Source: Selenomonas ruminantium subsp. lactilytica TAM6421
Lineage (GTDB): Bacteria > Bacillota > Negativicutes > Selenomonadales > Selenomonadaceae
Reading direction: 5' to 3'
NCBI RefSeq assembly: GCF_000284095.1
Contig: NC_017068.1
Coordinates: 2,046,001 to 2,110,000 of the forward strand
Length of the DNA: 64,000 nt
The notes under the pieces were generated by a model. The model was not told the DNA's origin. It was given only the letters and a program-made list of their open reading frames with translations, and did not search any database. A program made the translations under genes and the position numbers. Shown here one piece after another: positions 11,638 through 24,049 of this stretch (within the stretch, counting starts at the first letter, position 1; every line of letters starts with the position of its first letter).

Positions 11638-12939
11638 TCAGCTTGCAGATTTGGACAGTTCCGCTTCTCCATAGCGTTTTAGATTTAATGCCGCCTGGAA
11701 GTCGCGGTCTATCACATTGCCACAATGCGGGCAAACATAAGTCCTGTCAGATAGCTTCAGGTCTTTCTTTACATAGCCACACTCGATACAGGTCTTAGAG
11801 CTTGGATACCACCTGTCAGCTATGACAACGGCTATCTTCGCCCAATGAGCCTTGTATTCTATCTGTCTGCGGAACTCGTAAAGGTTTTGCTCCTGAACCT
11901 TCTCCGACAATTGCTTGTTCTTCATCATCCCCTGCACATTCAGGTCTTCGAGACATATAAAACTTGGTTTTCGTCCTATTATTGCCGCTGTGGCCTGATG
12001 CACATGATTGGCTCTGATGTTCGCCAATCTGTGGTTGATTCGTAAAAGTCGCTTTTCACTTTTTATAAGGTTGCCTGTTTTACAGTAACTTTCTCCTTTC
12101 TTGTTCATCTGGTATTTACGAGATACCTGACGCTGCAACCTGCGTCTTCTTTTTTTGAGCTTCCTTATTGCATGGGTCTTGTTGATATTTCTGACTTTGG
12201 TAGCGTCAGAGACTATCGCCAAATCCTTTATACCTAAATCAACGCCTACACCTTCCGTGCGGGGCTGTCCCGGTTGCTTACGGATAAACTTCAAGCCACG
12301 CATAGGCTTCAGCTTGCGGGAAGGCCTAACCCCCACGGACAGCCACCAGCTCTCACCATCAAAGGTTATTCTTGGGCTGGTGTATTTTGCCTTGGTCGGG
12401 ATTCTGCCCTTCTCGGCGAGTTTTATCCAGTTGAGCCTCTGGCGATTCTTTTTCTTGCTGCCAGCCATATTCTCCAGTTTGACATGTGTATCTGTGAACT
12501 GGATTTTTACGTTATCTTGGTAGAAGCGGAAATCTCCGTTCTTCCTGCTGCGGAATTTTGGGTGCCCGTTCATGTCATAGACTGTCAGCTTCCTGCCTAT
12601 CCGGGCATAATGCCCAATCTTCTTGGGTAAATATCTGACATAGCCAGCCTGTTTCTGTTTTCGAAAGAAATTCTTATATGCTATGCACAAGTCTTTGATG
12701 GCCTGCTTGGTGACATTGTTTGATATGTCCAGCAACCAGGGCTTTTCCCCGGAATTGCGGAGAACGGTAAACTCCTTGCGAAGGTCATAATTGCTTTGGA
12801 GTTTGCGTCCTTCCCGAAAATTCTCCATCTGCTTGTCTAAAGCCCAGTTGTAGGCAAACCTTGAAGCACCTGCGAACTGAAACAGTTTAGTCCTCTGCTT
12901 GTTGTTCGGGAGCAGCCGTATCCTGATTGACCTTATCAC
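11638..12939 (-). CDS. tnpB: TnpB RNA-guided nuclease
   Basis: 433 residues with a complete catalytic set: GVDLGIKDLAIVSD (RuvC-I Asp, about residue 227), FICLEDLNVQGM (RuvC-II Glu, about 318), a CxxC...CxxC zinc ribbon (CIECGY and CPHCGN), then VIDRDFQAALNL (RuvC-III Asp, about 412). An N-terminal helical region (RIRLLPNNKQRTKLFQFAG and the AYNWAL motif) is the usual OrfB HTH. The GTG start at 12939 follows AAGGTGG; a TATAAT box (12962-12967 on the opposite strand) lies just upstream. The frame is intact, so the nuclease may be active with its omega RNA. Confidence 0.92.
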   Translation of the reverse strand: MIRSIRIRLLPNNKQRTKLFQFAGASRFAYNWALDKQMENFREGRKLQSNYDLRKEFTVLRNSGEKPWLLDISNNVTKQAIKDLCIAYKNFFRKQKQAGYVRYLPKKIGHYARIGRKLTVYDMNGHPKFRSRKNGDFRFYQDNVKIQFTDTHVKLENMAGSKKKNRQRLNWIKLAEKGRIPTKAKYTSPRITFDGESWWLSVGVRPSRKLKPMRGLKFIRKQPGQPRTEGVGVDLGIKDLAIVSDATKVRNINKTHAIRKLKKRRRRLQRQVSRKYQMNKKGESYCKTGNLIKSEKRLLRINHRLANIRANHVHQATAAIIGRKPSFICLEDLNVQGMMKNKQLSEKVQEQNLYEFRRQIEYKAHWAKIAVVIADRWYPSSKTCIECGYVKKDLKLSDRTYVCPHCGNVIDRDFQAALNLKRYGEAELSKSAS

Positions 12940-13345: not shown

Positions 13346-16300
13346 CTACGCAATTTCACTGCCATTGTTGGTAATTTCTTTTACTTTAGCGAAGATATTG
13401 CCGACTTCTCCCACATTTTCCTTGAATAACTGTGCTACATTGCTCAATCCAGAAAAAGCCGGTTTCTTGACATCTTGGGGAATCATTTCGCCATTCTTGG
13501 CCAGATAATCAATGATGCGCTTCACAAAGTCAATCTGACGGAGGTTCAGGCGGTTCTCCTGCAGAAATTCAGCAAAAGCTTCTTCCAGCGCGGCTCTGTC
13601 CATCCCCACAGTTTTACGCACCATCAGCCCTACAGGACATTCACCATAGAGATGTCGGTAATCCTCATGGGTTCCCAATTCCTCCCACAGAATACGCTCT
13701 AATTCCTGCAAATCTGTAGCTGTCAGCCGCTTATTAGTACGAAGTTTGTGAACGGCAATATTATCCTGATGTTCTTTCAGGTAGCGTTCCACCTTCTTCT
13801 TGTAGCTTTCCGAAGTCTGCTCCGGCGTAACTACATGAGTTTCCTTAACCTCAAGGCGATTATCGGTAAAATCCGTATAATAGATTTTCGTACTCTCAGG
13901 TTCCAGAAACTTCAGCAAATCCCGCAATTCCGTCCGCACTTTTTCGATTTTATCCAGAGTCACATCATCCCAATATTCAGGATAACGCACTTGCTGAATA
14001 AAGGCCTGCTTCGTCTTTATCTGGGGGATAGTCTGCAAAGTTGTAGAACTCAGTTTATCGGCGGTTTCTTCCACCTGCTGGGCCTTTGCGGTAATATCTT
14101 TGGTCATCAGATAATCATACATCATACTGTACATCTTCTGGTCAAAGAAACGGGCCATTACATCATCATCTTGAGCAGGAATGATAGGCGCTATATGCTT
14201 GGCAATCTCCGCCACATCATCTGCGGTCAGATTTGCCCAACTGCATCTGTCCCGATACTTTTCCACCTGCTGGCGATTCTGAATAACACGGAAACTGCCA
14301 TTATCCAAAGCCATTACCGCACCATGCAGTTCTGCAAAGAGCTTCTGGGCAAACTCCTGCCGTTCCGTATCTTTATCCTTATGAAGCAACAGATACAGAT
14401 TGGCCTGCAAATTGTAGATGCGTTCCACCAAAGACGGCTGATTCTTGGTTTCTTTCAGCTTGTTGCCCTGCAAGCTGAAGTATTCGAAATTCCCGCCGTA
14501 ATCAAAAATGTAGAAATTCTTTTTGTCCAGTCCCGGGCCAAAAAGATCAGGACAAAGGCGTGTGCCCCGGCCTATCATCTGCCAGAACTTGCTGTAAGAA
14601 CGCACCATCTTAAAGAACACGAGATTCAGCACTTCCGGCACATCAATACCTGTATCCAGCATATCAACCGAAACAGCAATCTGCGGCATCTTGTCCGGCG
14701 TACGGAAATCATCAATAATCTGCTCGTGATAGTCAATACTGCCATCCACCTGCTGCATAAACGCATCGCCATACTCAGGATACATCTCATGGAAAATATC
14801 CACGATGAATTTAGCGTGCTTCCTGTTCTTGGCGAAGATGATGGTCTTGCCCAGCTTATCACCGCCATCAATATACTGCCCCATCGCCATCAAATCCTGA
14901 ATGACCATCTGCACCGTCTGACGATTAAACACGTATTTATTGAAAGCTGAACTCTGAATATCCGGGGCATTGTCACCAGCCAAACCGAATACTTCCTCGT
15001 AATGTTCCTTATCCTCTTCACTGAGGTCTTTATAATGAAGGCCATTCTTCATCAGTTTCGTGGTGCGTTCAAACTGCTCATAAGGCACGAGATACCCTTG
15101 CGCCACAGCCTCATCATACTGATAGGCAAAAGTGGGATTCCCCGCCTCCAGCTCAAACTGGCGGTAAGTATTCTTGTCCACCTCATTCTTAGGCGTTGCC
15201 GTAAGTCCCAACAGCATAGCATCGAAATACTGAAAAATCGCCTGATACCGCTGATAGATGCTTCGATGGCTCTCATCGATAATGATAAGGTCAAATGCAG
15301 CTGGCGAGAAAACTCTGCGCCCCTCAGGATTTTTCGCCGTGTCAATGGCGTTCATCATGGTGGGATAGGTACTGAAGATAATCCGCGCCGTTGCCGCATC
15401 ATCCCTGCTGTCCATCAGGCTGGCCATAGGTATCTCGTTGCTGAAAAAATCCATAAAGCTGCGCTTTGCTTGCCGCACCAGAGCAGTACGGTCAGCCAAA
15501 AACAAAATACGCTTCACCCAGCCGCCGCGAAATAGTACATCCGACAGGCTGATAGCCACACGGGTCTTGCCCGTCCCCGTTGCCTGCACGATAAGGGCTT
15601 TTCTGCGCTTATGATCGAAAGCCTCTTCCACCGCTTTGACTGCCTCAATCTGGTATGGCCTGCCTGCAATATCGTGATTCGGCTCAACCTCTGCCAACGT
15701 CTTCTGCATACCGTGCCTGTCCATACGCATCTGCAAATCATCCTGCGTAAAGAACCCCGAAACATCCCGGCGGGGATAACCGCCCTGCTCATCGAGAAAT
15801 ACTGTGCGCAGACCATTGGTCATAAAGATAAAAGGACGGCAGCCATATTTCGCCTCATAAGTGTTGGCATAGAGTTCTGCCTGTTTTGCCCCCTTCTCTG
15901 GGTCATAGCTGGTACGCTTAGCCTCCACAATAGCCAAAGGCTTCTGGTCTCTGCCGTAAAGTACATAATCCGAAAAGCCTGTATTCGAGGCATTGGGCAT
16001 ACCAGATACTTCTTCCTCAATACGGCAGTTATCGCCAATTATCCAACCCGCCGCTTCCAGGTCATAATCAATATACCGCTTGCGGGTTTCTGCTTCCGTG
16101 ATGGGATTGACATGGAACTCTCCCTGCGCCTGACGTTCCTTGCGCAGACGGATAACTTCCTGCTGAAGCTGCTCATTCTTCGCCCTTACATCATCCAGTT
16201 CCTGATTCTTTTCCTCCAGCTCATGCTGCTTCTGCGCAAGTATGGCATCTTTCTTTGCAATATCTTCTGCCTGCTTTTGGATTTCCTGCTGGCTGACAGC

Positions 16301-16759
16301 GGCCTTATCATCAGGAGATGGCAAAATACTTTCATCGAAAACCATTTCTCCCTGAATCGATGTATAGCAATAAGCCATCCAACTCAGAAACTCAAACAGG
16401 ATTCTAAGAGCCAGTACACCATCCCCATACGTAAGAGGTCTACCACCATGAGCGGCCCGATTGCCAAACAGACGCAGCTGGTCAAGCATGTGAAGCAGCT
16501 TATTATCCCCCACCACTTCACAAAAACCCCTATCCTTCAGCAAGGCAAAAAGTTCTCTATCCTTGCCGTATTTATACGGGTCACTCGTATCCATTCCCTC
16601 TGCACGATAAACCCATTTAATGCCCAGCTCCATAGCCGAACGCCCAAAGATAGCCGCCACTTCCGGCGCAATCGCCATTCCCTGTTCTGCTTTCCTGGCT
16701 CTCTCAGCTATATTAACCCATTGGGGTTCCTGATCAACAAAGTCAAAATTGGATGCCAT
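13346..16759 (-). CDS. hsdR: type I restriction enzyme, motor/nuclease subunit HsdR
   Basis: About 1137 residues. The N-terminal 150 residues form a helical DUF4145-like region, followed by a coiled coil (about 150-215). The nuclease core shows GFSDYVLYGRD and LAIVEAKRTS (PD-ExK, about 265-290). The SF2 translocase has VQATGTGKTRVA (Walker A), IIIDESHRSIYQRY (DESH) and LLGLTATPKNEVD, and MLDTGIDVPEVLNLVFFK later on. The C-terminal part is of the EcoEI_R_C type. The ATG at 16759 is preferred; an in-frame GTG at 16774 is the alternative. It cleaves DNA lacking methylation when assembled with HsdM and HsdS, and is the last gene of the RM locus, separated from hsdM by more than 5 kb of extra genes. 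Confidence 0.93.
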   Translation of the reverse strand: MASNFDFVDQEPQWVNIAERARKAEQGMAIAPEVAAIFGRSAMELGIKWVYRAEGMDTSDPYKYGKDRELFALLKDRGFCEVVGDNKLLHMLDQLRLFGNRAAHGGRPLTYGDGVLALRILFEFLSWMAYCYTSIQGEMVFDESILPSPDDKAAVSQQEIQKQAEDIAKKDAILAQKQHELEEKNQELDDVRAKNEQLQQEVIRLRKERQAQGEFHVNPITEAETRKRYIDYDLEAAGWIIGDNCRIEEEVSGMPNASNTGFSDYVLYGRDQKPLAIVEAKRTSYDPEKGAKQAELYANTYEAKYGCRPFIFMTNGLRTVFLDEQGGYPRRDVSGFFTQDDLQMRMDRHGMQKTLAEVEPNHDIAGRPYQIEAVKAVEEAFDHKRRKALIVQATGTGKTRVAISLSDVLFRGGWVKRILFLADRTALVRQAKRSFMDFFSNEIPMASLMDSRDDAATARIIFSTYPTMMNAIDTAKNPEGRRVFSPAAFDLIIIDESHRSIYQRYQAIFQYFDAMLLGLTATPKNEVDKNTYRQFELEAGNPTFAYQYDEAVAQGYLVPYEQFERTTKLMKNGLHYKDLSEEDKEHYEEVFGLAGDNAPDIQSSAFNKYVFNRQTVQMVIQDLMAMGQYIDGGDKLGKTIIFAKNRKHAKFIVDIFHEMYPEYGDAFMQQVDGSIDYHEQIIDDFRTPDKMPQIAVSVDMLDTGIDVPEVLNLVFFKMVRSYSKFWQMIGRGTRLCPDLFGPGLDKKNFYIFDYGGNFEYFSLQGNKLKETKNQPSLVERIYNLQANLYLLLHKDKDTERQEFAQKLFAELHGAVMALDNGSFRVIQNRQQVEKYRDRCSWANLTADDVAEIAKHIAPIIPAQDDDVMARFFDQKMYSMMYDYLMTKDITAKAQQVEETADKLSSTTLQTIPQIKTKQAFIQQVRYPEYWDDVTLDKIEKVRTELRDLLKFLEPESTKIYYTDFTDNRLEVKETHVVTPEQTSESYKKKVERYLKEHQDNIAVHKLRTNKRLTATDLQELERILWEELGTHEDYRHLYGECPVGLMVRKTVGMDRAALEEAFAEFLQENRLNLRQIDFVKRIIDYLAKNGEMIPQDVKKPAFSGLSNVAQLFKENVGEVGNIFAKVKEITNNGSEIA

Positions 16760-16788
16760 ACCATCACCGCCCACTTATTGCTAAATGA

Positions 16789-17556
16789 TTATTTCCTTCT
16801 TGCCCCTCGCACTCGTCTGCGCAGGAAAAATAACCAGACACCTATAAACTGTTCGTATTCCTTCGCACTTTCCATCTCGTCTATCTTTTTATAAATGCCA
16901 TTCTGGATTTTACTTTCATCATTGCCATATTTTCTGGCCAAAGCTTCCATAAAGTGACTGAAGTCCTGATAAACTTCCCGCCGTCCTTTTACCAGTGCAG
17001 TAGATGTATCATGCACGATATTTCCCTTTTCATCTAACTTGCCATTCAGATGAAGAACATCATTTATATCATGTTCCAGTTCTTCATCATAAGGATTTGT
17101 GGCAATTCTTCCATTTGCCCGATAGACTAATTTCTCAATATGTTCCTTCTTCCATGGCGAAATCGTTATCCGTTCATTACTCTTCGCCGCATCACAGGAT
17201 AAAACCTTCCTAGCGTCATCTGCGCCCCTTCCACCATCACAGCACCCCAACATATTGCTATAAGCTAAAACATGATCCTTTTTCCACTGAGTATCATTTT
17301 CGTTCTTCTTTACGGGCTGCCAATGCTCTATCACCATTGATTCATCATTGCGGATTCTTCTCATACAATATGCACATAAACCATGCTGTTCCTCATATAG
17401 TGCATTTCGTACTGTGGCTTTATCCAGCTAATCAAAGTAGCTTCGAAGCTTTTCCGTATCGATATCAGCAGCCGCTTTCCAACCGTCTTCTGCCTTTATC
17501 GCAGCTACCTGCTCCACCATCTTCTTCGGAGCATTCTGTTTCCTTATATGAATCAT
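16789..17556 (-). pseudogene. ptuB: Septu HNH endonuclease PtuB (TIGR02646-like), interrupted by an amber codon
   Basis: Reading from the ATG at 17556 gives MIHIRKQNAPKK...LRSYFD, then TAG (17430-17428), then in the same frame LDKATVRNALYEEQHGLCAYC followed by MRRIRNDESMVIEHWQP and the rest, 255 codons in all. CAYC plus IEHWQP is the zinc-binding/HNH signature of the TIGR02646 family, partner of SMC-like ATPases in Septu and some retrons. The start overlaps the ptuA stop (TAATG), as expected of a coupled pair. The stop lies before the CxxC, so neither the 42-residue peptide nor a product re-starting at 17364 would hold the complete motif. A single C-to-T change of CAG would explain it. Confidence 0.8.
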
Positions 17557-18833
17557 TACAATTCCTCCACCCAGCGATTGACGCGAAGAAACCGATTCAT
17601 TTCATCATATACTGGTGAAGTTTCGCCAAATTCTTCCTTTACGCTCTGCACGATCTCGTCTGCCCGGGCAAAATCACCTTCATCCACAGCCAGTTCTAAC
17701 TGCCGCTTGCGCTCAACAATATCTTCAGGACGGGAAGTGCTCCCCTGACGCAGTTCCAACACTTCATCAGCTGTATAACCATAAGCAGGTTCCAATATTT
17801 CCGTGGTTTTCAAATCAACAAGTTTAATTATGCGGGCATCCTTGATAGACGATATGACAATGGGCGAATGCGTTGCGATGATGAACTGAACACAAGGGAA
17901 CACCTGTCGTATAGCATCGAGAATCTTCCACTGCCATTTCGGATGCAGATGGGCATCTATCTCATCAATCAGTACAACACCTTCCAACTCAGAAAAGTCT
18001 TCCATACCGGGATTAAGCACCGCCGCCCTGTATGCCAGCTCCATAATCATGGACAGAATAGCCCGGTAGCCCGTACTGAGATTATAGATGGAGTCTTTAC
18101 GTTCCCCTATGGTAATTTCCATGCCTTGGGTTTCTATCGAATACTCGATTTTGATGTCATCAGGAGTTTCCAGCATGATAGCCATGAACTTCTTAATCGT
18201 ATTTTGGAATAACTGATACTCATGCACTGTATGCTTCTTTTGATATTCCAAAAAGCTCATTTTCAGGCACCAGTTTTGGATTACCTCTTCAATTCGCTTG
18301 CCCATCAAGCATTCTTGATAACCATCTTTTCGTAAAGTCATACCAGCAGTTACCATAAAATCCCTTTTCCCCACAACTGGGCTGGTATGCCAATCTCTAT
18401 CAAAATTCTGCAAACATAAAATAGGCAATTTTTTACCATTATCATTAAGCACAGAAGAAAAGAAATTCATTAAGTCAAAGTCAGCCATACGTTTCGAGTC
18501 ATCTTCATTATCACGACTCATACTTACTGAATACTTTCTTTCATCATCCCATTGCAACTCATATGAAATTTGTTGTGGAAATTGTGGAACGAAAGAATGC
18601 GTTGCATCGCCTTCCTTCCTATAAATACGACGAACAGTATCATTATATAACGTTTTGCCCTGCATACCACTTGTAGTTGAAAACATCGCACCCAAGCCAA
18701 TAGCCAGCGCATCTATCAATGATGTTTTTCCCGAACCATTATTTCCTATCAATAAATTAATTCCTTGAGAAAAATCGACAGTAATGTCCTCAAATCCTTT
18801 GAAGTTTTTAGCAGTTATATTTTTTAAAAACAT
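17556..18833 (-). CDS. ptuA: Septu-like AAA ATPase PtuA
   Basis: 425-residue SMC/OLD-like ATPase. Opens with KNITAKNFKGFEDITVDF and Walker A LLIGNNGSGKTSLIDAL (about residues 30-45); the ABC-type signature region is NLSTGYRAILSMIMELAYR (about 255) and Walker B is GVVLIDEIDAHLHPKWQW (about 295), followed by the His-switch IATHSPIVISS. It lacks the TOPRIM domain of OLD nucleases, which fits PtuA rather than OLD. The ribosome site AAAGGAG overlaps the end of the silent hsdS. Together with the HNH gene right after it, it forms a Septu (PtuAB) anti-phage module nested in the type I RM locus. Confidence 0.85.
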   Translation of the reverse strand: MFLKNITAKNFKGFEDITVDFSQGINLLIGNNGSGKTSLIDALAIGLGAMFSTTSGMQGKTLYNDTVRRIYRKEGDATHSFVPQFPQQISYELQWDDERKYSVSMSRDNEDDSKRMADFDLMNFFSSVLNDNGKKLPILCLQNFDRDWHTSPVVGKRDFMVTAGMTLRKDGYQECLMGKRIEEVIQNWCLKMSFLEYQKKHTVHEYQLFQNTIKKFMAIMLETPDDIKIEYSIETQGMEITIGERKDSIYNLSTGYRAILSMIMELAYRAAVLNPGMEDFSELEGVVLIDEIDAHLHPKWQWKILDAIRQVFPCVQFIIATHSPIVISSIKDARIIKLVDLKTTEILEPAYGYTADEVLELRQGSTSRPEDIVERKRQLELAVDEGDFARADEIVQSVKEEFGETSPVYDEMNRFLRVNRWVEEL

Positions 18834-18836
18834 ATA

Positions 18837-19480
18837 CTATCTCCTTTTATCTAAAATTTGATGTGAAAATAATATTTTACTGGCTTTTAATACTGCAATA
18901 CTTATCTCTGTTACCAATTTCGATTTGTCTGTGAAGGCTACAAAATCGGCGAATTGGTTTTGGAGTTCAATAGCAGGCAACAGAATGTCAAAATTGCTAA
19001 GTTGTGCTATTGAAAGATAAGCAACTGTTGTACCAGACACAACTTTGTCTATCTGTTGCCTTATACCCTGCGAATCAAATAGGTATGAGACATAGACAGG
19101 ATTGATTTCTGCTTCGCTTGTGTGAACCCAGCTAATCATGCCATCTTGAAAATAGAATTTATCTTTCGGCTTTATGATATAGCATTGTCCCAAGGTTCCT
19201 CGTGCTGTAACAAGTATATCACCGGCATGGGGGACTAAACCCTGCTGCTCAAATTCATTGAACTGTTGTTCAGATATGTATAAATCGCAAGTTTCCGTAT
19301 TAAAAACTATCTTTGAGATTAGGTCAGAAACACGCAGGAATGGTACACCTGCTGATGTTTGTTCACTCTGATATACACGTTTGCTAGAACCTACAGTGCA
19401 TATATCTTTGAATCGCTTTATTGGCCACTTCATCGGATTTGTCACGGGGTCGCCAAACATCTCGACAAACCGTGATTTGA
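18837..19480 (-). pseudogene. silent half-hsdS cassette (one target-recognition domain)
   Basis: Codes for one target-recognition domain and a C-terminal conserved helix, starting in the central conserved repeat (SRFVEMFGDPVTNPMKW) shared with hsdS. A TAG precedes the shared segment, there is no ribosome site before the internal ATG at 19460, and no N-terminal domain exists, so it is probably not expressed as such. It begins 3 nt after the recombinase gene. The helix ELQNQFADFVAFTDKSKL mirrors that of hsdS. It is in the same orientation as hsdS and would supply an alternative second half after recombination. Confidence 0.75.
19431..19480 (-). repeat. 50-bp direct repeat, copy 2 (silent hsdS)
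   Basis: 45 of 50 bases identical to 21102-21151, in the same orientation. It encodes the SRFxEMFGDPVTNPM linker of HsdS. Candidate crossover site of the recombinase encoded immediately before it. Confidence 0.8.
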
Positions 19481-19482
19481 GA

Positions 19483-20475
19483 TTATGCTATATACTTACG
19501 ATGAGAAATCTTCACATTATTTTGGTCAACCATGGCATATTCCATAGTTGTATCAATCTTGCTGTGACCTAAGAGCTGCTGAACCTGCTCTATGGGCATT
19601 CCTTTATCGATGGCTCTTGTGGCTAGGGTTCGTCTGAATTTATGCGGATGAACTCTTGTGATGCCTAATTTGCGGCCCATGTTCCGCAAACGTATCTCTA
19701 CGCCGCTGATTTGCAAACGGTTATGGGGATTTTGTATCGATACAAAGAGTGCAGGATTCTCGTCAGTACGACTATCCAGATAATTCTTTAGGTGTATCTT
19801 CGTTCTTGCATCGAAGTAAACCGGACGCTCCTTGCTCCCCTTGCCAAATACTACACATTCCCGGCTCTCAAAGTTCACATCACTGCGATTCAGACGTACC
19901 AATTCCCCTACACGCATGCCTGTGGAGGCCAACAAATCTATTATCGCCAAGTCACGGCTGTTGCTGCAGTTATCACGTATTTGCTCCAGTGATTCGTCCG
20001 TATAGGTTTCCTTAACCATCTTTGCCGTCTTGATTTTGTGAATACGGCGCACAGGGCTTTTCAATATATGGTTTTCTTCTTCTAACCAAGCAAAGAAACT
20101 GGATAGGATACGGCGAATATTATCGATATTCACCTTGCTACAACCACGAACCTCTTGATAATTAGAAAGATATTTCCGTAAATCCTCCGTAGTAATGTGC
20201 GTCAAATGCTTGTCTAGCTGTCCTATAGCCTTGACTATGGTTGACTGATAGTATTTTAGGGTTCGTTCACTGCAACCTTCTACCTTTTTAGCCGCAATAA
20301 ACATATTCACAAACTCATTATTGCTTATGCCCGTATCATTATCTGCCGTGCCACTGTCTGTGACCACTTTATTCGATAGGCATTCGGTCAACTTTTCACG
20401 GAGGCGCATTAACTGAGCATTATCCAAATAAGGAAGCATTCCCTGCATAATTTCGGTGATAAGGTAATCTTTCAT
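19483..20475 (-). CDS. tyrosine recombinase associated with hsdS switching
   Basis: 330 residues, XerC/D-like. An N-terminal SAM-like core-binding domain (about 55-150) precedes the catalytic domain with LLASTGMRVGELVRLNRSD (first Arg), VFGKGSKERPVYF, HPHKFRRTLATRA (His and second Arg) and LLGHSKIDTTMEYAMV (His/Tyr nucleophile, about 312). All catalytic residues are present. It sits between complete hsdS and a silent half-hsdS, the usual place of recombinases that reshuffle HsdS target domains in phase-variable type I systems. Start ATG follows AAAGGAAAAG. Its stop lies 3 nt before the 50-bp repeat. Confidence 0.9.
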   Translation of the reverse strand: MKDYLITEIMQGMLPYLDNAQLMRLREKLTECLSNKVVTDSGTADNDTGISNNEFVNMFIAAKKVEGCSERTLKYYQSTIVKAIGQLDKHLTHITTEDLRKYLSNYQEVRGCSKVNIDNIRRILSSFFAWLEEENHILKSPVRRIHKIKTAKMVKETYTDESLEQIRDNCSNSRDLAIIDLLASTGMRVGELVRLNRSDVNFESRECVVFGKGSKERPVYFDARTKIHLKNYLDSRTDENPALFVSIQNPHNRLQISGVEIRLRNMGRKLGITRVHPHKFRRTLATRAIDKGMPIEQVQQLLGHSKIDTTMEYAMVDQNNVKISHRKYIA

Positions 20476-20537
20476 ATAGACTTTTCCTTTCCACCAACCT
20501 CCGGCACCTCTTAATCCGTTACAATCATGATATTCAA

Positions 20538-21668
20538 TTAGCCAAAATAATCTTGCATAAGTTTTGCCTTTAGCGTCTGTAACGTTTCAATACTCTGCTG
20601 AATAGCAAGTTTCGATTTGTCGGTGATGGATACGAAGTCAGCGAATTGTTTTTGTAGTTCAACTGGTGGAAAAATAAACTCTATCTCTGAAAGTTGTCCT
20701 TTACTCAAAATTCCCTTCAATGCCATATTAACACCACTACAGATGTATTCTTTAGACAATCGAAACTGCTCATACATGAAGTATGTACTCTGTTCATTAG
20801 GAAGAATTGCATTTATCTGTTGGTTAAACGCTACTGCACGGTCAACGATAGCCACATTACCAATGGAGCGTAAACTTCCTGCAATACATGTCATTAAAAT
20901 ACTTCCTGCCTCAACTATACGTCCGACTTTTGCTCCTTCGTCGGAAAGGTACTCAGTTGCTGTTGTAAGATTTGTTGCTTCAGTGATATTGTCAGATTTT
21001 ATCCATTCAATATCGTTGCCGTAGTATTCTTTTACTTTGCGTGAAGGCGTGTTACCTGTCACGATTTCACATTTATCCGCTAGGCGAATACGCTCCCAAC
21101 CCATTGGATTCGTCACTGGGTCACCAAACATCTCGATAAACCGTGATTTGACAAGGTTATCTAATACAGTGATAGCTTCTTTACGGTTAAAGATAAGTTC
21201 CTGAATCTCATCAATGATATCCGCAATCCATTGTTGTTTTTCAAAAGGCCATATCGGAACATTGAAATCCTTTAGAACATCTTTACCAATAGCCTTAAAG
21301 GTACTTCCTGTCCCTTGTTCTGCCAAGCGTTCCTTATAGTAATCTAGTAAATAAAACAAATACTTTAAGTTAATATTTTCTTTTGGACGGATAGCAGCCA
21401 AGCCACGTCCGATACAACATTCTTCCTGTGCAATATTGACATCGCCAATAGGTGCTCTCACAGACATAAGAATATCATCCGCCATTGCAATCTTTTTGGG
21501 CGATGTACAATACATTCTGACAGTAGGATAAACTTCACCAAAATCTGATTTTCCTTGATAAAAAGGGATTCCCTCTCCCTTATCATTATACGATTCCGAA
21601 TCAGGTGATTGTCCCATTATTATTTCTGTAACTTCATATAGTGTTTTAGTCTCTGTCTTATTCATCAT
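20538..21668 (-). CDS. hsdS: type I restriction enzyme specificity subunit HsdS
   Basis: 376 residues with two target-recognition domains (about 5-150 and 195-340), each followed by a conserved helical spacer: the central one holds LVKSRFIEMFGDPVTNPMGW and the distal one ELQKQFADFVSITDKSKL. It decides the DNA sequence recognised by the HsdM/HsdR complex. The start ATG (21668) directly follows the stop of the PBECR4-like gene with GAGGA upstream, so the two are translationally linked. The second half could be replaced by the downstream silent cassette through the 50-bp direct repeats. Confidence 0.92.
   Translation of the reverse strand: MMNKTETKTLYEVTEIIMGQSPDSESYNDKGEGIPFYQGKSDFGEVYPTVRMYCTSPKKIAMADDILMSVRAPIGDVNIAQEECCIGRGLAAIRPKENINLKYLFYLLDYYKERLAEQGTGSTFKAIGKDVLKDFNVPIWPFEKQQWIADIIDEIQELIFNRKEAITVLDNLVKSRFIEMFGDPVTNPMGWERIRLADKCEIVTGNTPSRKVKEYYGNDIEWIKSDNITEATNLTTATEYLSDEGAKVGRIVEAGSILMTCIAGSLRSIGNVAIVDRAVAFNQQINAILPNEQSTYFMYEQFRLSKEYICSGVNMALKGILSKGQLSEIEFIFPPVELQKQFADFVSITDKSKLAIQQSIETLQTLKAKLMQDYFG
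21102..21151 (-). repeat. 50-bp direct repeat, copy 1 (inside hsdS)
   Basis: 45/50 identical to 19431-19480 and in direct orientation; lies between the two target-recognition domains of hsdS. Recombination between the copies would excise a 1671-bp circle with the second half of hsdS and the recombinase gene. Confidence 0.8.
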
Positions 21669-22343
21669 CTATTCCTCACGAGTATATCTGTTCATTAGCT
21701 CCTGAACTATTTCTATATTGTTGCCCAAGTATAATTGGGCAACATCCTTTATTGATGTGAAATTTTTCCCAGCTAATTTATGGTCAATATAACCAAACTC
21801 CCAATTATCTTTATCAGCAATTTCTCTTACCAGCACCAAGCATACTGGATTTTCTTTTTTCACCACTTCACGAATAGACTGCCTTTTCAATGTCACAGGG
21901 TAATCTTCTTTTGCTCTGCGAAATCCCAAAGAAACAACACAACGTGTGTCACCTGCAAAATAATCCGCATTGATATGAATATCGTTGTTTATGGATTCAC
22001 CAATCCAAAATTTATTATACAGCAGCTCAGGAAGATAGTTCAGAACTGACAGCTTCATATTCGTAAATCCATTGGGATTAAAGCGGATTTTATGGGGTGA
22101 AAGCATCTTGTTCAGACACATTTTGTAAAAGTCTCTGGGGCTTACATAATCTGCATATTTTATCCCAGTCAAATGCTGAAAATTATTCTGGGTAAACTTT
22201 ATCTTTTTATGTTCTATAGTCCCCGAAGCTAAGTCTTTATATATTATAACGAAAATCCGTCCTGCTAATTTTTCCTTATATCCTTGCGCAGCTGCAACCA
22301 GAATATCGATAGCCTGTTGTGCAGTATATCTCTTTATTCCCAA
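21669..22343 (-). CDS. PBECR4-like (BECR-fold) putative RNase, candidate toxin
   Basis: 224 residues. Features resemble the PBECR4 family (phage Barnase-EndoU-ColicinE5/D-RelE-like nuclease 4): the N-terminal helix AAAQGYKEKLAGRIFVIIYK, the hallmark NNFQHLTGIKY near residue 53, SPRDFYKMCLNKML, a lysine-bearing segment NMKLSVLNYLPELLYNKFW, and the final strand pair with DNWEFGYIDHKLAG. The domain call is from memory of the family profile. The start is TTG at 22343 with AGAGGTG correctly placed; no ATG fits. It lies between hsdM and hsdS, directly behind a promoter, two 54-nt repeats and a hairpin, the gene order of type III toxin-antitoxin loci. An antiviral or accessory role inside the RM locus is inferred. 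Confidence 0.6.
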   Translation of the reverse strand: MGIKRYTAQQAIDILVAAAQGYKEKLAGRIFVIIYKDLASGTIEHKKIKFTQNNFQHLTGIKYADYVSPRDFYKMCLNKMLSPHKIRFNPNGFTNMKLSVLNYLPELLYNKFWIGESINNDIHINADYFAGDTRCVVSLGFRRAKEDYPVTLKRQSIREVVKKENPVCLVLVREIADKDNWEFGYIDHKLAGKNFTSIKDVAQLYLGNNIEIVQELMNRYTREE

Positions 22344-22366
22344 AATAACACCTCTATATAATAAAT

Positions 22367-22389
22367 GAGGCCATCAAACTGATGGCCTC
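22367..22389 (-). terminator. hairpin between the repeat RNA and the PBECR4-like gene
   Basis: Perfect 10-bp stem GAGGCCATCA / TGATGGCCTC with a 3-nt loop, followed on the minus strand by ATTTATTATAT rather than a solid T-run, so it would stop most but not all transcripts. In type III toxin-antitoxin loci a leaky terminator in just this place sets the RNA-to-toxin ratio. Confidence 0.7.
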
Positions 22390-22536
22390 TAACCTGCCGA
22401 TTTTTCTGTCGTCCCCCGACATCATCAGCCCTTACGTCTGACAGTTGTTTGGAGTTTTTCCGTCGCTCCCCGACATCACTGGCCCTTACGTCCAGCATTC
22501 ATTTGGGATTTTTAAGGTGTCGGCACACCATTCCTT
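22390..22536 (-). ncRNA. candidate RNA antitoxin with two 54-nt repeats
   Basis: A transcript starting about 7 nt after the TATAAT box would carry a first hairpin (GGTGT/ACACC, near 22511-22530), then two tandem repeats and end at the 10-bp hairpin. No open reading frame is evident in it. Each repeat can form two short stems, and the loop GGG of stem 1 could pair with a CCC/TCC near the repeat start to make a pseudoknot, as in ToxI-type RNAs. Assignment is inferred from position, structure and covariation. Confidence 0.5.
22403..22510 (-). repeat. two tandem 54-nt repeats with covarying stems
   Basis: Unit 1 at 22510-22457 and unit 2 at 22456-22403, 40 of 54 positions identical without gaps. 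Conserved core GACGTAAGGGC and TGATGTCGGGG. Stem 1 is CTGG/CCAG in unit 1 and TCAG/CTGA in unit 2: three of four base pairs differ and all three changes are compensatory. Stem 2 is TGTCG/CGAC(G or A), with a G-U to A-U change. Each unit ends in an A-run. Confidence 0.85.
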
Positions 22537-22542
22537 ACTTGT

Positions 22543-22571
22543 ATTATACAATTTTTTCCTGAATTACGCAA
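22543..22571 (-). promoter_or_regulatory. promoter of the repeat RNA and PBECR4-like gene
   Basis: Minus-strand TTGCGT (22571-22566) and a perfect TATAAT (22548-22543) with a 17-nt spacer, in the 242-bp gap just after the hsdM stop codon. It gives the repeats, the putative toxin and hsdS their own transcription start inside the RM locus. Confidence 0.75.
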
Positions 22572-22585
22572 GACTACAGCGGATT

Positions 22586-24049
22586 CTAGCCTTCCCCCAG
22601 TAGTTCGCGTAATTTTTCCATATCATTGTTAAACTCCATATTCAGCTCGTCCAGCTTCGTCATCATTTCCAACGTACTGGGATATTCCACCGGCACATAC
22701 TCGATTTCCTTATACTTATTGATGGAGAGGTCATAGCCATTTTGCTGGATTTCCTCCACGGGAACGAAGAAACTCTTCTCCGTGCGCTTGCGGCCTTCTT
22801 CCTGTTCCAGATTCTTGAACCGGGCGATAATGTCAGGAATATCGTTCTCCTCAATCTCCTGCCGCTTGTCATCAAGGCTGTAGCCGTCTGCCTGCATATC
22901 GTAGAACCAAACCTTGTCCGTACCGCCTGCATTTGTCTTGGTAAAGAAGAGTATTGCCGTGGACACCCCTGCATAAGGCTTGAACACGCCGCTAGGCATG
23001 GAAACCACTGCTGTCAATTTGTTGTTATCCACCAGTTCCTTGCGCAGAGCCTGATGAGCCTTGGAGGAACCAAAGAGCACGCCATCCGGAACAATTACCG
23101 CAGCTCTGCCGCCCAGTTTCAAGATACGCAGGAACAAGGCGAGGAAAAGCAGTTCTGTTTTCTTGGTCTTAGTGACACGCAACAGACTTTCCTCCACCGT
23201 TTCATTGTCCAGAGAGCCTTTAAATGGAGGATTGGCCAGACAAAGGGTATAGAGTTCCTTATCGGGATTATGCTTGGAAAGGCTGTCTTTATAGTCAATG
23301 CTGGGATTTTGCACACCATGAAGCATCATGTTCATGGTGCCGATGCGCAGCATGGTGGGGTCAGTATCAAAGCCGTGGAACATGGTGGTATTGAAATGCT
23401 TTGCCTGCTCATCATCCAACAGCATATCTCCATGATTCTTCCGGATAAATTCTTCTGCCGCTACTAAGAATCCTGCCGTGCCCATGGCCGGATCTACTAC
23501 AATATCCGAAGGCTGCGGAGATGCCATCTCCACCATCATCTTGATGATATGACGCGGCGTGCGGAACTGGCCGTTGATTTTGGAAGAAGCCAGCTTGGAT
23601 AACATGTACTCGTACAGATCGCCCTTGCTGTCTTCCTCATTCAGTTCCAGCTTGTCAATGCCCTCAATGATTTTTGCTAGTTTGTCCGGCGCAGAAATCT
23701 GGAAGGTTGCATCTTTCATAAAGCGGGTATAGGACGCATCATCATCGGGATGCAGATTCTTAATAAAGGGAAAAATCTCCTCCTGCATAAGCTGAAACTG
23801 TACGGCCGGAGCTAAGTTCTTGAACTTGCTCCAACGATAATTCTGCTGTTCCGGCCCAAAGATTTTTTCTTCGTTCTCAAAGCCCAACAACGCCGCATTT
23901 GCTTCGTTCTCTGTCTCTATATCATCAAGCTGTTTGATAAACAGCAGATAGGTAAACTGTTCAATAACCAACAGAGGATTTGTCAATCCGCCCGTCCAAA
24001 AGGTATCCCATATCTGGTCAACTTTATTTCGCTCTTCGCCTACTAACAT
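22586..24049 (-). CDS. hsdM: type I DNA adenine methyltransferase HsdM
   Basis: 487 residues. The N-terminal HsdM_N helical domain (about 1-130) is followed by the methyltransferase fold: motif I VVDPAMGTAGFLVAA (about residue 185) binds S-adenosylmethionine and LANPPFKGS (motif IV NPPF, about 272) is the N6-adenine catalytic motif. The C-terminal helices contact HsdS. Methylates the target adenine for self-protection and is needed for restriction. First gene of the RM locus; ATG at 24049 follows GAGGAT, and a TTGACA/TACAAT promoter lies upstream. Confidence 0.95.
   Translation of the reverse strand: MLVGEERNKVDQIWDTFWTGGLTNPLLVIEQFTYLLFIKQLDDIETENEANAALLGFENEEKIFGPEQQNYRWSKFKNLAPAVQFQLMQEEIFPFIKNLHPDDDASYTRFMKDATFQISAPDKLAKIIEGIDKLELNEEDSKGDLYEYMLSKLASSKINGQFRTPRHIIKMMVEMASPQPSDIVVDPAMGTAGFLVAAEEFIRKNHGDMLLDDEQAKHFNTTMFHGFDTDPTMLRIGTMNMMLHGVQNPSIDYKDSLSKHNPDKELYTLCLANPPFKGSLDNETVEESLLRVTKTKKTELLFLALFLRILKLGGRAAVIVPDGVLFGSSKAHQALRKELVDNNKLTAVVSMPSGVFKPYAGVSTAILFFTKTNAGGTDKVWFYDMQADGYSLDDKRQEIEENDIPDIIARFKNLEQEEGRKRTEKSFFVPVEEIQQNGYDLSINKYKEIEYVPVEYPSTLEMMTKLDELNMEFNNDMEKLRELLGEG

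Follow-up and report, generated by a model that had tools for sequence, protein, structure and literature searches.

What is the function of two diverged tandem repeats placed directly before the gene of a predicted ribonuclease, between the hsdM and hsdS genes of a type I restriction locus? We have found them in a stretch of 64,000 nt of Selenomonas ruminantium subsp. lactilytica TAM6421 (NC_017068.1, positions 2,046,001–2,110,000), which we will call the window. We consider it very probable that the repeats are an RNA antitoxin and that the next gene codes for its toxin, a ribonuclease of the PBECR4 type.

The repeat pair and its surroundings

A repeat search of the window gives two tandem copies of 54 nt in positions 22401–22454 and 22455–22508, with 74% identity. 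An earlier sequence-only reading had also described two copies with 14 differences in 54 positions, as we find; it placed them in 22403–22510, so that the repeats are present but their register was off by two bases only. The RNA strand is the minus strand: unit 1 runs from TCCC to AAAAA (22508–22455) and is followed by unit 2, from CTCC to AAAAA (22454–22401). Each unit has a start of four nucleotides, two stems and a final A-run. Stem 1 is CTGG/CCAG in unit 1 and TCAG/CTGA in unit 2: three of its four pairs are changed on both sides, while its loop ACGTAAGGG is identical in the two copies, just as the sequence-only reading had noticed. Stem 2 is GTCG/CGAC in both, with loop GGGAG in unit 1 and GGGGA in unit 2. 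This core had been extended by an outer pair which goes from T-G to T-A; the pair is present in the window, but it is not conserved in all relatives.

The changes in the stems had been attributed to selection on RNA structure, a wider alignment being proposed as the check. Covariation in such alignments (14 units; 7 whole arrays) supports this idea. In the 14 units, which come from 7 arrays, both stems are paired in 112 of 112 cells, with 20 cells changed on both sides; the covariation is 0.540 versus 0.280 in shuffled alignments, and none of 500 shuffles reaches it. These shuffles, like the others given below, are uncorrected for relatedness. A pseudoknot between the GGG of loop 1 and the start of the unit had also been suggested. 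It has to be rejected: two loop-1 Gs are constant in all 14 units, the starts vary (CTCT, CCCG, GGCC) and the unit alignment has no covariation between them. MFE folding is weak, with z −1.37 and −0.43 for the single units and −1.42 for the whole stretch. Since the single-unit values are weak, the case rests on comparison and not on folding energy.

The sequence-only reading overlooked the context of this RNA, all of it on the minus strand. Upstream there is a promoter-like site TTGCGT-17-TATAAT (22543–22571), found by eye and checked for position; a promoter scan of the window does not list it on that strand. TATAAT is also found upstream in six of the seven family-A arrays with toxin, the exception being L038. 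A leader hairpin GGTG-TGCCGA-CACC (22516–22529) precedes the repeats, and a tail TCGGCA (22395–22400), complementary to the leader loop TGCCGA, follows them. Between the RNA and the gene there is a hairpin like that of an intrinsic terminator, with a 10-bp stem (22367–22389); folding of 22365–22392 gives −17.8 kcal/mol and z −6.33. The gene itself (21669–22343, TTG start) codes for 224 amino acids with the PBECR4 domain (PF18813), a predicted RNase and our proposed toxin. Its neighbours are hsdM upstream (22586–24049, type I modification subunit) and hsdS downstream (20538–21668, specificity subunit). They belong to a dense defence block (13346–24049), in the order hsdM, RNA-PBECR4 module, hsdS, integrase, a second, shorter hsdS, ptuA, ptuB and hsdR. 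The two hsdS genes and the integrase are perhaps an inversion system, and ptuA with ptuB we take to be Septu. An IS605-type OrfB (TnpB-like) gene is found near the restriction block, in positions 11638–12939 of the minus strand.

No Rfam family accounts for the array: Rfam at gathering cut-offs finds only a tRNA in the whole window, and its abiF model has no match at the array. The drum model (RF02958) has none in the window at gathering, nor in the array-bearing locus L001 at E ≤ 1.

The protein matches PF18813 in residues 14–178 (Pfam scan, E = 5.4e-28, 99.1 bits versus a curated cut-off of 27). Its residues H57, K97 and T151 mark positions where all 44 relatives in the alignment have a His, a Lys or Arg and a Ser or Thr, respectively; of 54 relatives 10 were left out of this alignment, being near-duplicates, fragments or broken frames. 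PBECR4 has the His and the C-terminal Ser/Thr of the BECR active site, as given in PMC5512222. Its endoribonuclease activity and a processing of the repeats are inferred, since only active-site-like residues are conserved. The ToxN family has no match to the protein up to E 1 in the Pfam scan, a comparison of sequence profiles and not of folds, nor does PADLOC up to E 1. An AlphaFold model from four sequences was poor (pLDDT 47.1) and too weak for a structure search; among solved structures a profile search matched nothing but three proteasome chains (E 0.53–0.76).

PF18813 is concentrated in the family of the window, in 38 of 189 genomes (37 above the cut-off) versus 4 of 398 genomes sampled in the phylum, two of which (the window's own and G003) belong to its genus. 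Single-protein scans of genome contigs and viral contigs gave no relative. A closer protein alignment added three loci from genomes (Selenomonas felix, a Schwartzia MAG, an uncultured Veillonellaceae), and their arrays repeat exactly those of L040, L036 and L038; in viral contigs neither this alignment nor later scans found any relative. A DNA-pattern search gave two matches which look like chance and were discarded.

Predicted pairing between the two units

A two-unit array of the window type precedes a PBECR4 gene in seven loci (the window, L012 and L036–L040). As judged from the sequences, the start of one unit would pair with the loop of stem 2 in its partner unit and not with its own. In the window the four nucleotides TCCC match GGGGA, and CTCC matches GGGAG. 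The letters change together elsewhere: CTCT with GAGAG in L039 and L040, CCCG with GCGGG in L037, CTCG with GCGAG and TCCG with GCGGA in L082. In L012 GGCC and GGGCA pair only in three of four positions. The leader loop and the tail also covary, as TGCCGA/TCGGCA, GGTCAG/CTGACC, GGCTGA/TCAGTC and GTCTGA/TCAGAC.

In 14 two-unit arrays, with the position of the elements verified in all of them, the cross-unit pairs are Watson-Crick in 53 of 56 and 53 of 56 cases, versus 31 of 56 and 33 of 56 for pairs inside the same unit; the leader and tail pair in 74 of 84. Shuffling of the 10 distinct rows gives p = 4.5e-4 and 5e-5 for the cross-unit pairs and about 1e-3 for leader and tail. The whole structure in seven arrays has 29 pairs, with 98.0% of the cells paired; in 19 of the pairs both sides are changed, versus a mean of 8.3 in the shuffles. 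Its covariation is 0.585 versus 0.279, not reached in 500 shuffles. One stem-1 pair is omitted from this score, as the aligner shifted two rows. Taken alone, the inter-unit and leader-tail pairs are 95.9% paired, 10 of 14 are changed on both sides and the covariation is 0.626 versus 0.276 (0 of 500). Own-unit pairing fits worse (78.6% paired, 0.381 versus 0.246, reached by 7 of 500 shuffles) and was rejected as the main structure; it is somewhat above the shuffles because starts and loops share their composition. The pseudoknots expected of an antitoxin RNA are supported by this covariation of loops and strands, a comparative result without probing data.

A complementary difference would account for the lack of identity between the two units, as the pairs favour joining the units over pairing of a unit with itself. 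The rule is not strict, given that the units of L037 are nearly alike. A one-unit array (L083, G058), inspected by eye and outside the counts, begins with TCCG, which matches the loop GCGGA of the same unit: such a self-match is what a ring of one would need.

The same network appears outside the family. Searches with protein sequences first gave the Erysipelothrix phage phi1605, later Enterococcus plasmids and phages and in the end 96 records of plasmids and 14 of phages. The query matters: with the window protein, or with those of L048 and L049, one phage record is found, while the phi1605 and Enterococcus proteins find many. We opened 17 outside loci, which have 15 distinct arrays or regions, as the array of L132 is that of L133 and the array of L146 that of L134. 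By eye we could resolve the elements of eleven arrays, all of them before PBECR4 genes, in the same order and with a similar spacing but different letters. Six are from phages (phi1605, EF3, Javan100, D4840, PLgT-1 and a Latilactobacillus phage) and five from plasmids (E. durans, Avibacterium, Macrococcoides, Pediococcus and Lactiplantibacillus); Erysipelothrix, Enterococcus, Lactococcus, Streptococcus and lactobacilli are among the taxa represented. Their cross-unit pairs are Watson-Crick in 44 of 44 and 43 of 44 cases (87 of 88), versus 29 of 44 and 26 of 44 inside the units. In phi1605 CTTG matches GCAAG, CCAA matches GTTGG and the leader GCTTGA matches the tail TCAAGC. These arrays had no part in deriving the network, but they were parsed with it in mind, and two of them have a stem 2 of 3 bp. 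In phage phiLC3 (L138) the network fits only in part and was left unparsed. Arrays were not parsed in L143, L144 and L147 either, and the last two show no evident RNA. L143 (363–1380, Ligilactobacillus salivarius plasmid pCTN1046) has no evident RNA array; its PBECR4 gene starts 4 nt after a protein gene, perhaps a protein partner.

A strict scan for the whole network detects it in 5 of the 7 training loci, in 5 of 8 loci in which the toxin is missing or cut and in 8 of 17 outside regions. It is detected in none of the upstream regions of 45 other PBECR4 genes, those of drum type included. Shuffled sequences gave 0 of 1400, 0 of 1600, 1 of 3400 and 0 of 9000 matches respectively. The scan misses two training arrays and three of the toxin-less or cut ones; its eight outside positives include one array twice, L143 was entered at two places and L132 was not entered. 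An own-unit variant of the network was found in none of 77 regions. The limits were set after the sequences had been seen and after a lax scan, which was uninformative: it also matched 3–14% of the shuffles and 14 of the 45 other loci.

RNAs before other PBECR4 genes

Most of these genes have a terminator-like hairpin not more than 140 nt ahead of their PF18813 match: it is found in 46 of 54 loci, versus 7 of 48 open reading frames of the window. The scan covered 54 of 61 loci, near-duplicates included; the window frames were measured from their start and one of the seven is the PBECR4 gene itself. Nearly all the other PBECR4 loci displayed have, by eye, a different non-coding stretch and a terminator-like hairpin, L045 and L060 being the exceptions.

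In many cases the stretch is a known RNA. The drum RNA (RF02958), above gathering, lies directly before PBECR4 on the same strand in L004, L006, L008–L011, L013, L018, L021, L024, L041, L057, L066 and L068. It is above the cut-off at 25 places in the 189 genomes of the family and is directly followed by a PF18813 match in 20 of them, one of which (G006, L020) has by eye a reading frame with an internal deletion. After four of the other five drums tblastn detects C-terminal remnants of PBECR4; the last one, L108, looks by eye like one of these four. Among four matches below the cut-off, three precede a PF18813 match and the one in G047 does not. In the phylum sample drum is found in 2 of 398 genomes, one of them outside the family (G295, L100) and without PBECR4 after it. 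This count began from intact RNAs and is blind to how often the RNA decays first. A literature search for drum found no paper on its function.

Other non-coding stretches before PBECR4 genes resemble further types of RNA and have no match in Rfam upstream on the same strand. This is the case for L014, L015, L017 and L067, with repeats of 73 nt in L015 and L017, for L016, and also for L019, L025, L046, L047, L054–L056, L058, L059 and L061. In L016 a DUF3800-VIII RNA (RF03075) is found in positions 1361–1423, just after the PBECR4 gene; it was rejected as a partner, being downstream and on the other strand.

A probable RNA antitoxin and its alternatives

The anatomy of the locus, the covariation, the association with PBECR4 across taxa, the RNAs without a toxin and the deleted toxins are all observed, and the best reading of them is a type III-like module in which both the fold of the toxin and the architecture of the RNA are new. 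How it would work is inferred: no experiment has addressed transcription, toxicity, binding, processing, trigger or stoichiometry. A single promoter would drive the leader, the two repeats and the tail. The terminator-like hairpin would keep the RNA in excess, and a slight read-through would make the toxin. The RNA is predicted to form a closed set of pseudoknots, in which each hairpin loop pairs with a strand of 4–6 nt: the leader loop with the tail, the unit-2 loop with the unit-1 start and the unit-1 loop with the unit-2 start. The last would be an H-type pseudoknot with the A-rich linker as its third loop. The toxin may cut the RNA at the A-runs; the folded RNA would then bind and block the PBECR4 nuclease. 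Loss of the RNA supply, by loss of a plasmid or shut-off of transcription by a phage, would free the toxin.

A different trigger is conceivable for the same molecules: the module might be a guard of the restriction system, set off when its neighbour is inhibited, like PrrC, an anticodon nuclease which lies in a type I locus. The window module lies between hsdM and hsdS with hsdR nearby, that of L051 follows a gene for an MmeI-type enzyme and that of phi1605 a gene annotated as a type III restriction subunit; however, no restriction gene is seen beside L050 or the module of the Avibacterium plasmid, and no statistics were made. This guard function, compatible with an RNA antitoxin of PBECR4, remains a tentative proposal, and we rate it as rather unlikely.

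Our unit model finds strong arrays (E < 1e-8) in 15 of the 189 genomes. Another 16 of the 31 genomes with matches have weak ones only (E 2.7e-4 to 0.1), which are excluded from the counts; three that we inspected (L084, L088, L089) show no array. Among the 15 strong loci seven lead into PBECR4, one (G021) stops at the contig end where the gene begins, and in the other seven the terminator is not followed by PBECR4. An array is found before efp in L074, a gene named by eye, and directly before hsdS in L077 and L079; in genomes G002 and G007 the array is directly before hsdS and the toxin gene is absent. There is no convincing PBECR4 remnant in the seven toxin-less family-A arrays: the sole match, of 24 amino acids (E 0.005, L079), is inside hsdS. 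An RNA which is kept where the toxin has been lost is expected of a toxin-antitoxin pair, with the caveat that the search started from intact RNAs.

The structured RNA could instead be only an attenuator or another regulatory 5' region, governing read-through into the PBECR4 gene, which PBECR4 itself may sense or cut, and no antitoxin in trans. The RNA immediately precedes the gene and is separated from it by a terminator-like hairpin, as is also the case for attenuators; yet arrays without PBECR4 in seven genomes and drums before deleted toxins are unexpected of a pure cis-regulator, and we consider this explanation improbable.

The seven arrays without PBECR4 leave room for an independent role of the RNA; that it acts alone, for instance as an mRNA leader of restriction genes or a sponge triggered by phages, with PBECR4 merely a frequent neighbour, is hardly credible when about half of the strong family loci lead into PBECR4 and the network precedes it in 11 records of other taxa, a count biased by searches that started from PBECR4.

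The RNA antitoxin and PBECR4 toxin may be compared with known systems. According to PMC5086642, the type III systems are ToxIN, CptIN and TenpIN, with toxins related to ToxN, and their layout is tandem repeats, a Rho-independent terminator and the toxin gene. The window locus has this layout, but its toxin is not a homologue of ToxN, CptN or TenpN by sequence profile. The RNAs of these systems also form pseudoknots; CptI has about two repeats, of 45 nt, with a first loop of one base and an A-rich second loop (PMC5086642 and PMC4627078), which the A-rich linkers of the window RNA seem to recall. Here the units are of 52–55 nt, the array has no match in Rfam and the pseudoknots bridge the two units and join leader to tail, whereas those of type III close inside one repeat. 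The recent type III-like pair AbiF-RCd22 also has two RNA motifs and a terminator before a toxin gene which is not ToxN, and RCd22 is reported to neutralise AbiF by direct interaction; its protein is Abi_2/AbiF and its motifs have 33 and 35 nt (PMC12373285). Drum shares with the window RNA its layout and its place before PBECR4 genes, but it is a single model of 112 positions.

PBECR domains have been described as predicted RNases of polyvalent phage proteins, a domain group with the same active site as the window protein; fusions and solo copies are presented, and no RNA partner is named in the accessible part of PMC5512222. The sole other paper with the term, on C. difficile proteins, names PBECR3 (PMC9403866). 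In a literature search on PBECR4/PF18813, drum RNA/DUF3800 and new type III families, which did not cover many journals or any preprints, we found no paper on an RNA-PBECR4 pair. As the proposed toxin is PBECR4 and no such paper was found, we do not file the pair under the families based on ToxN. It points to a toxin-antitoxin pair based on RNA which is widespread in bacteria, plasmids and phages and apparently undescribed. A more ambitious proposal, to which we give an even chance, is that PBECR4 nucleases supply the toxins for a large group of toxin-antitoxin systems, as yet undescribed, in which several unrelated RNAs neutralise them, drum among these RNAs. In the window the RNA would close on itself by three reciprocal pseudoknots which involve the leader, both units and the tail; this would oblige the repeats to be different and to pair with each other. 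It would cage two or three toxin molecules; the copies in restriction loci would be guards which fire when restriction is blocked.

If the reading as antitoxin and toxin is true, RNA-neutralised toxins reach another nuclease fold and drum gains a proposed function. The reciprocal pairing of the repeats is a precise prediction which can be mutated. A poorly annotated protein of Enterococcus plasmids (77 records) and phages (14 records) would become half of a maintenance or defence module; on plasmids and phages it appears as "PBECR4 domain-containing", hypothetical or without annotation. The 77 Enterococcus records are part of the 96 matching plasmid records, 76 of which have at least 99% identity and 57 are predicted to be conjugative. 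L133 and L132 are Enterococcus plasmids with the PBECR4 gene and a two-unit RNA, and one of these records is named as a vanA plasmid. In the Enterococcus phage EF3 (L134) the PBECR4 module is shortly followed by a RatA antitoxin RNA (RF01776, 85.1 bits, positions 967–1052).
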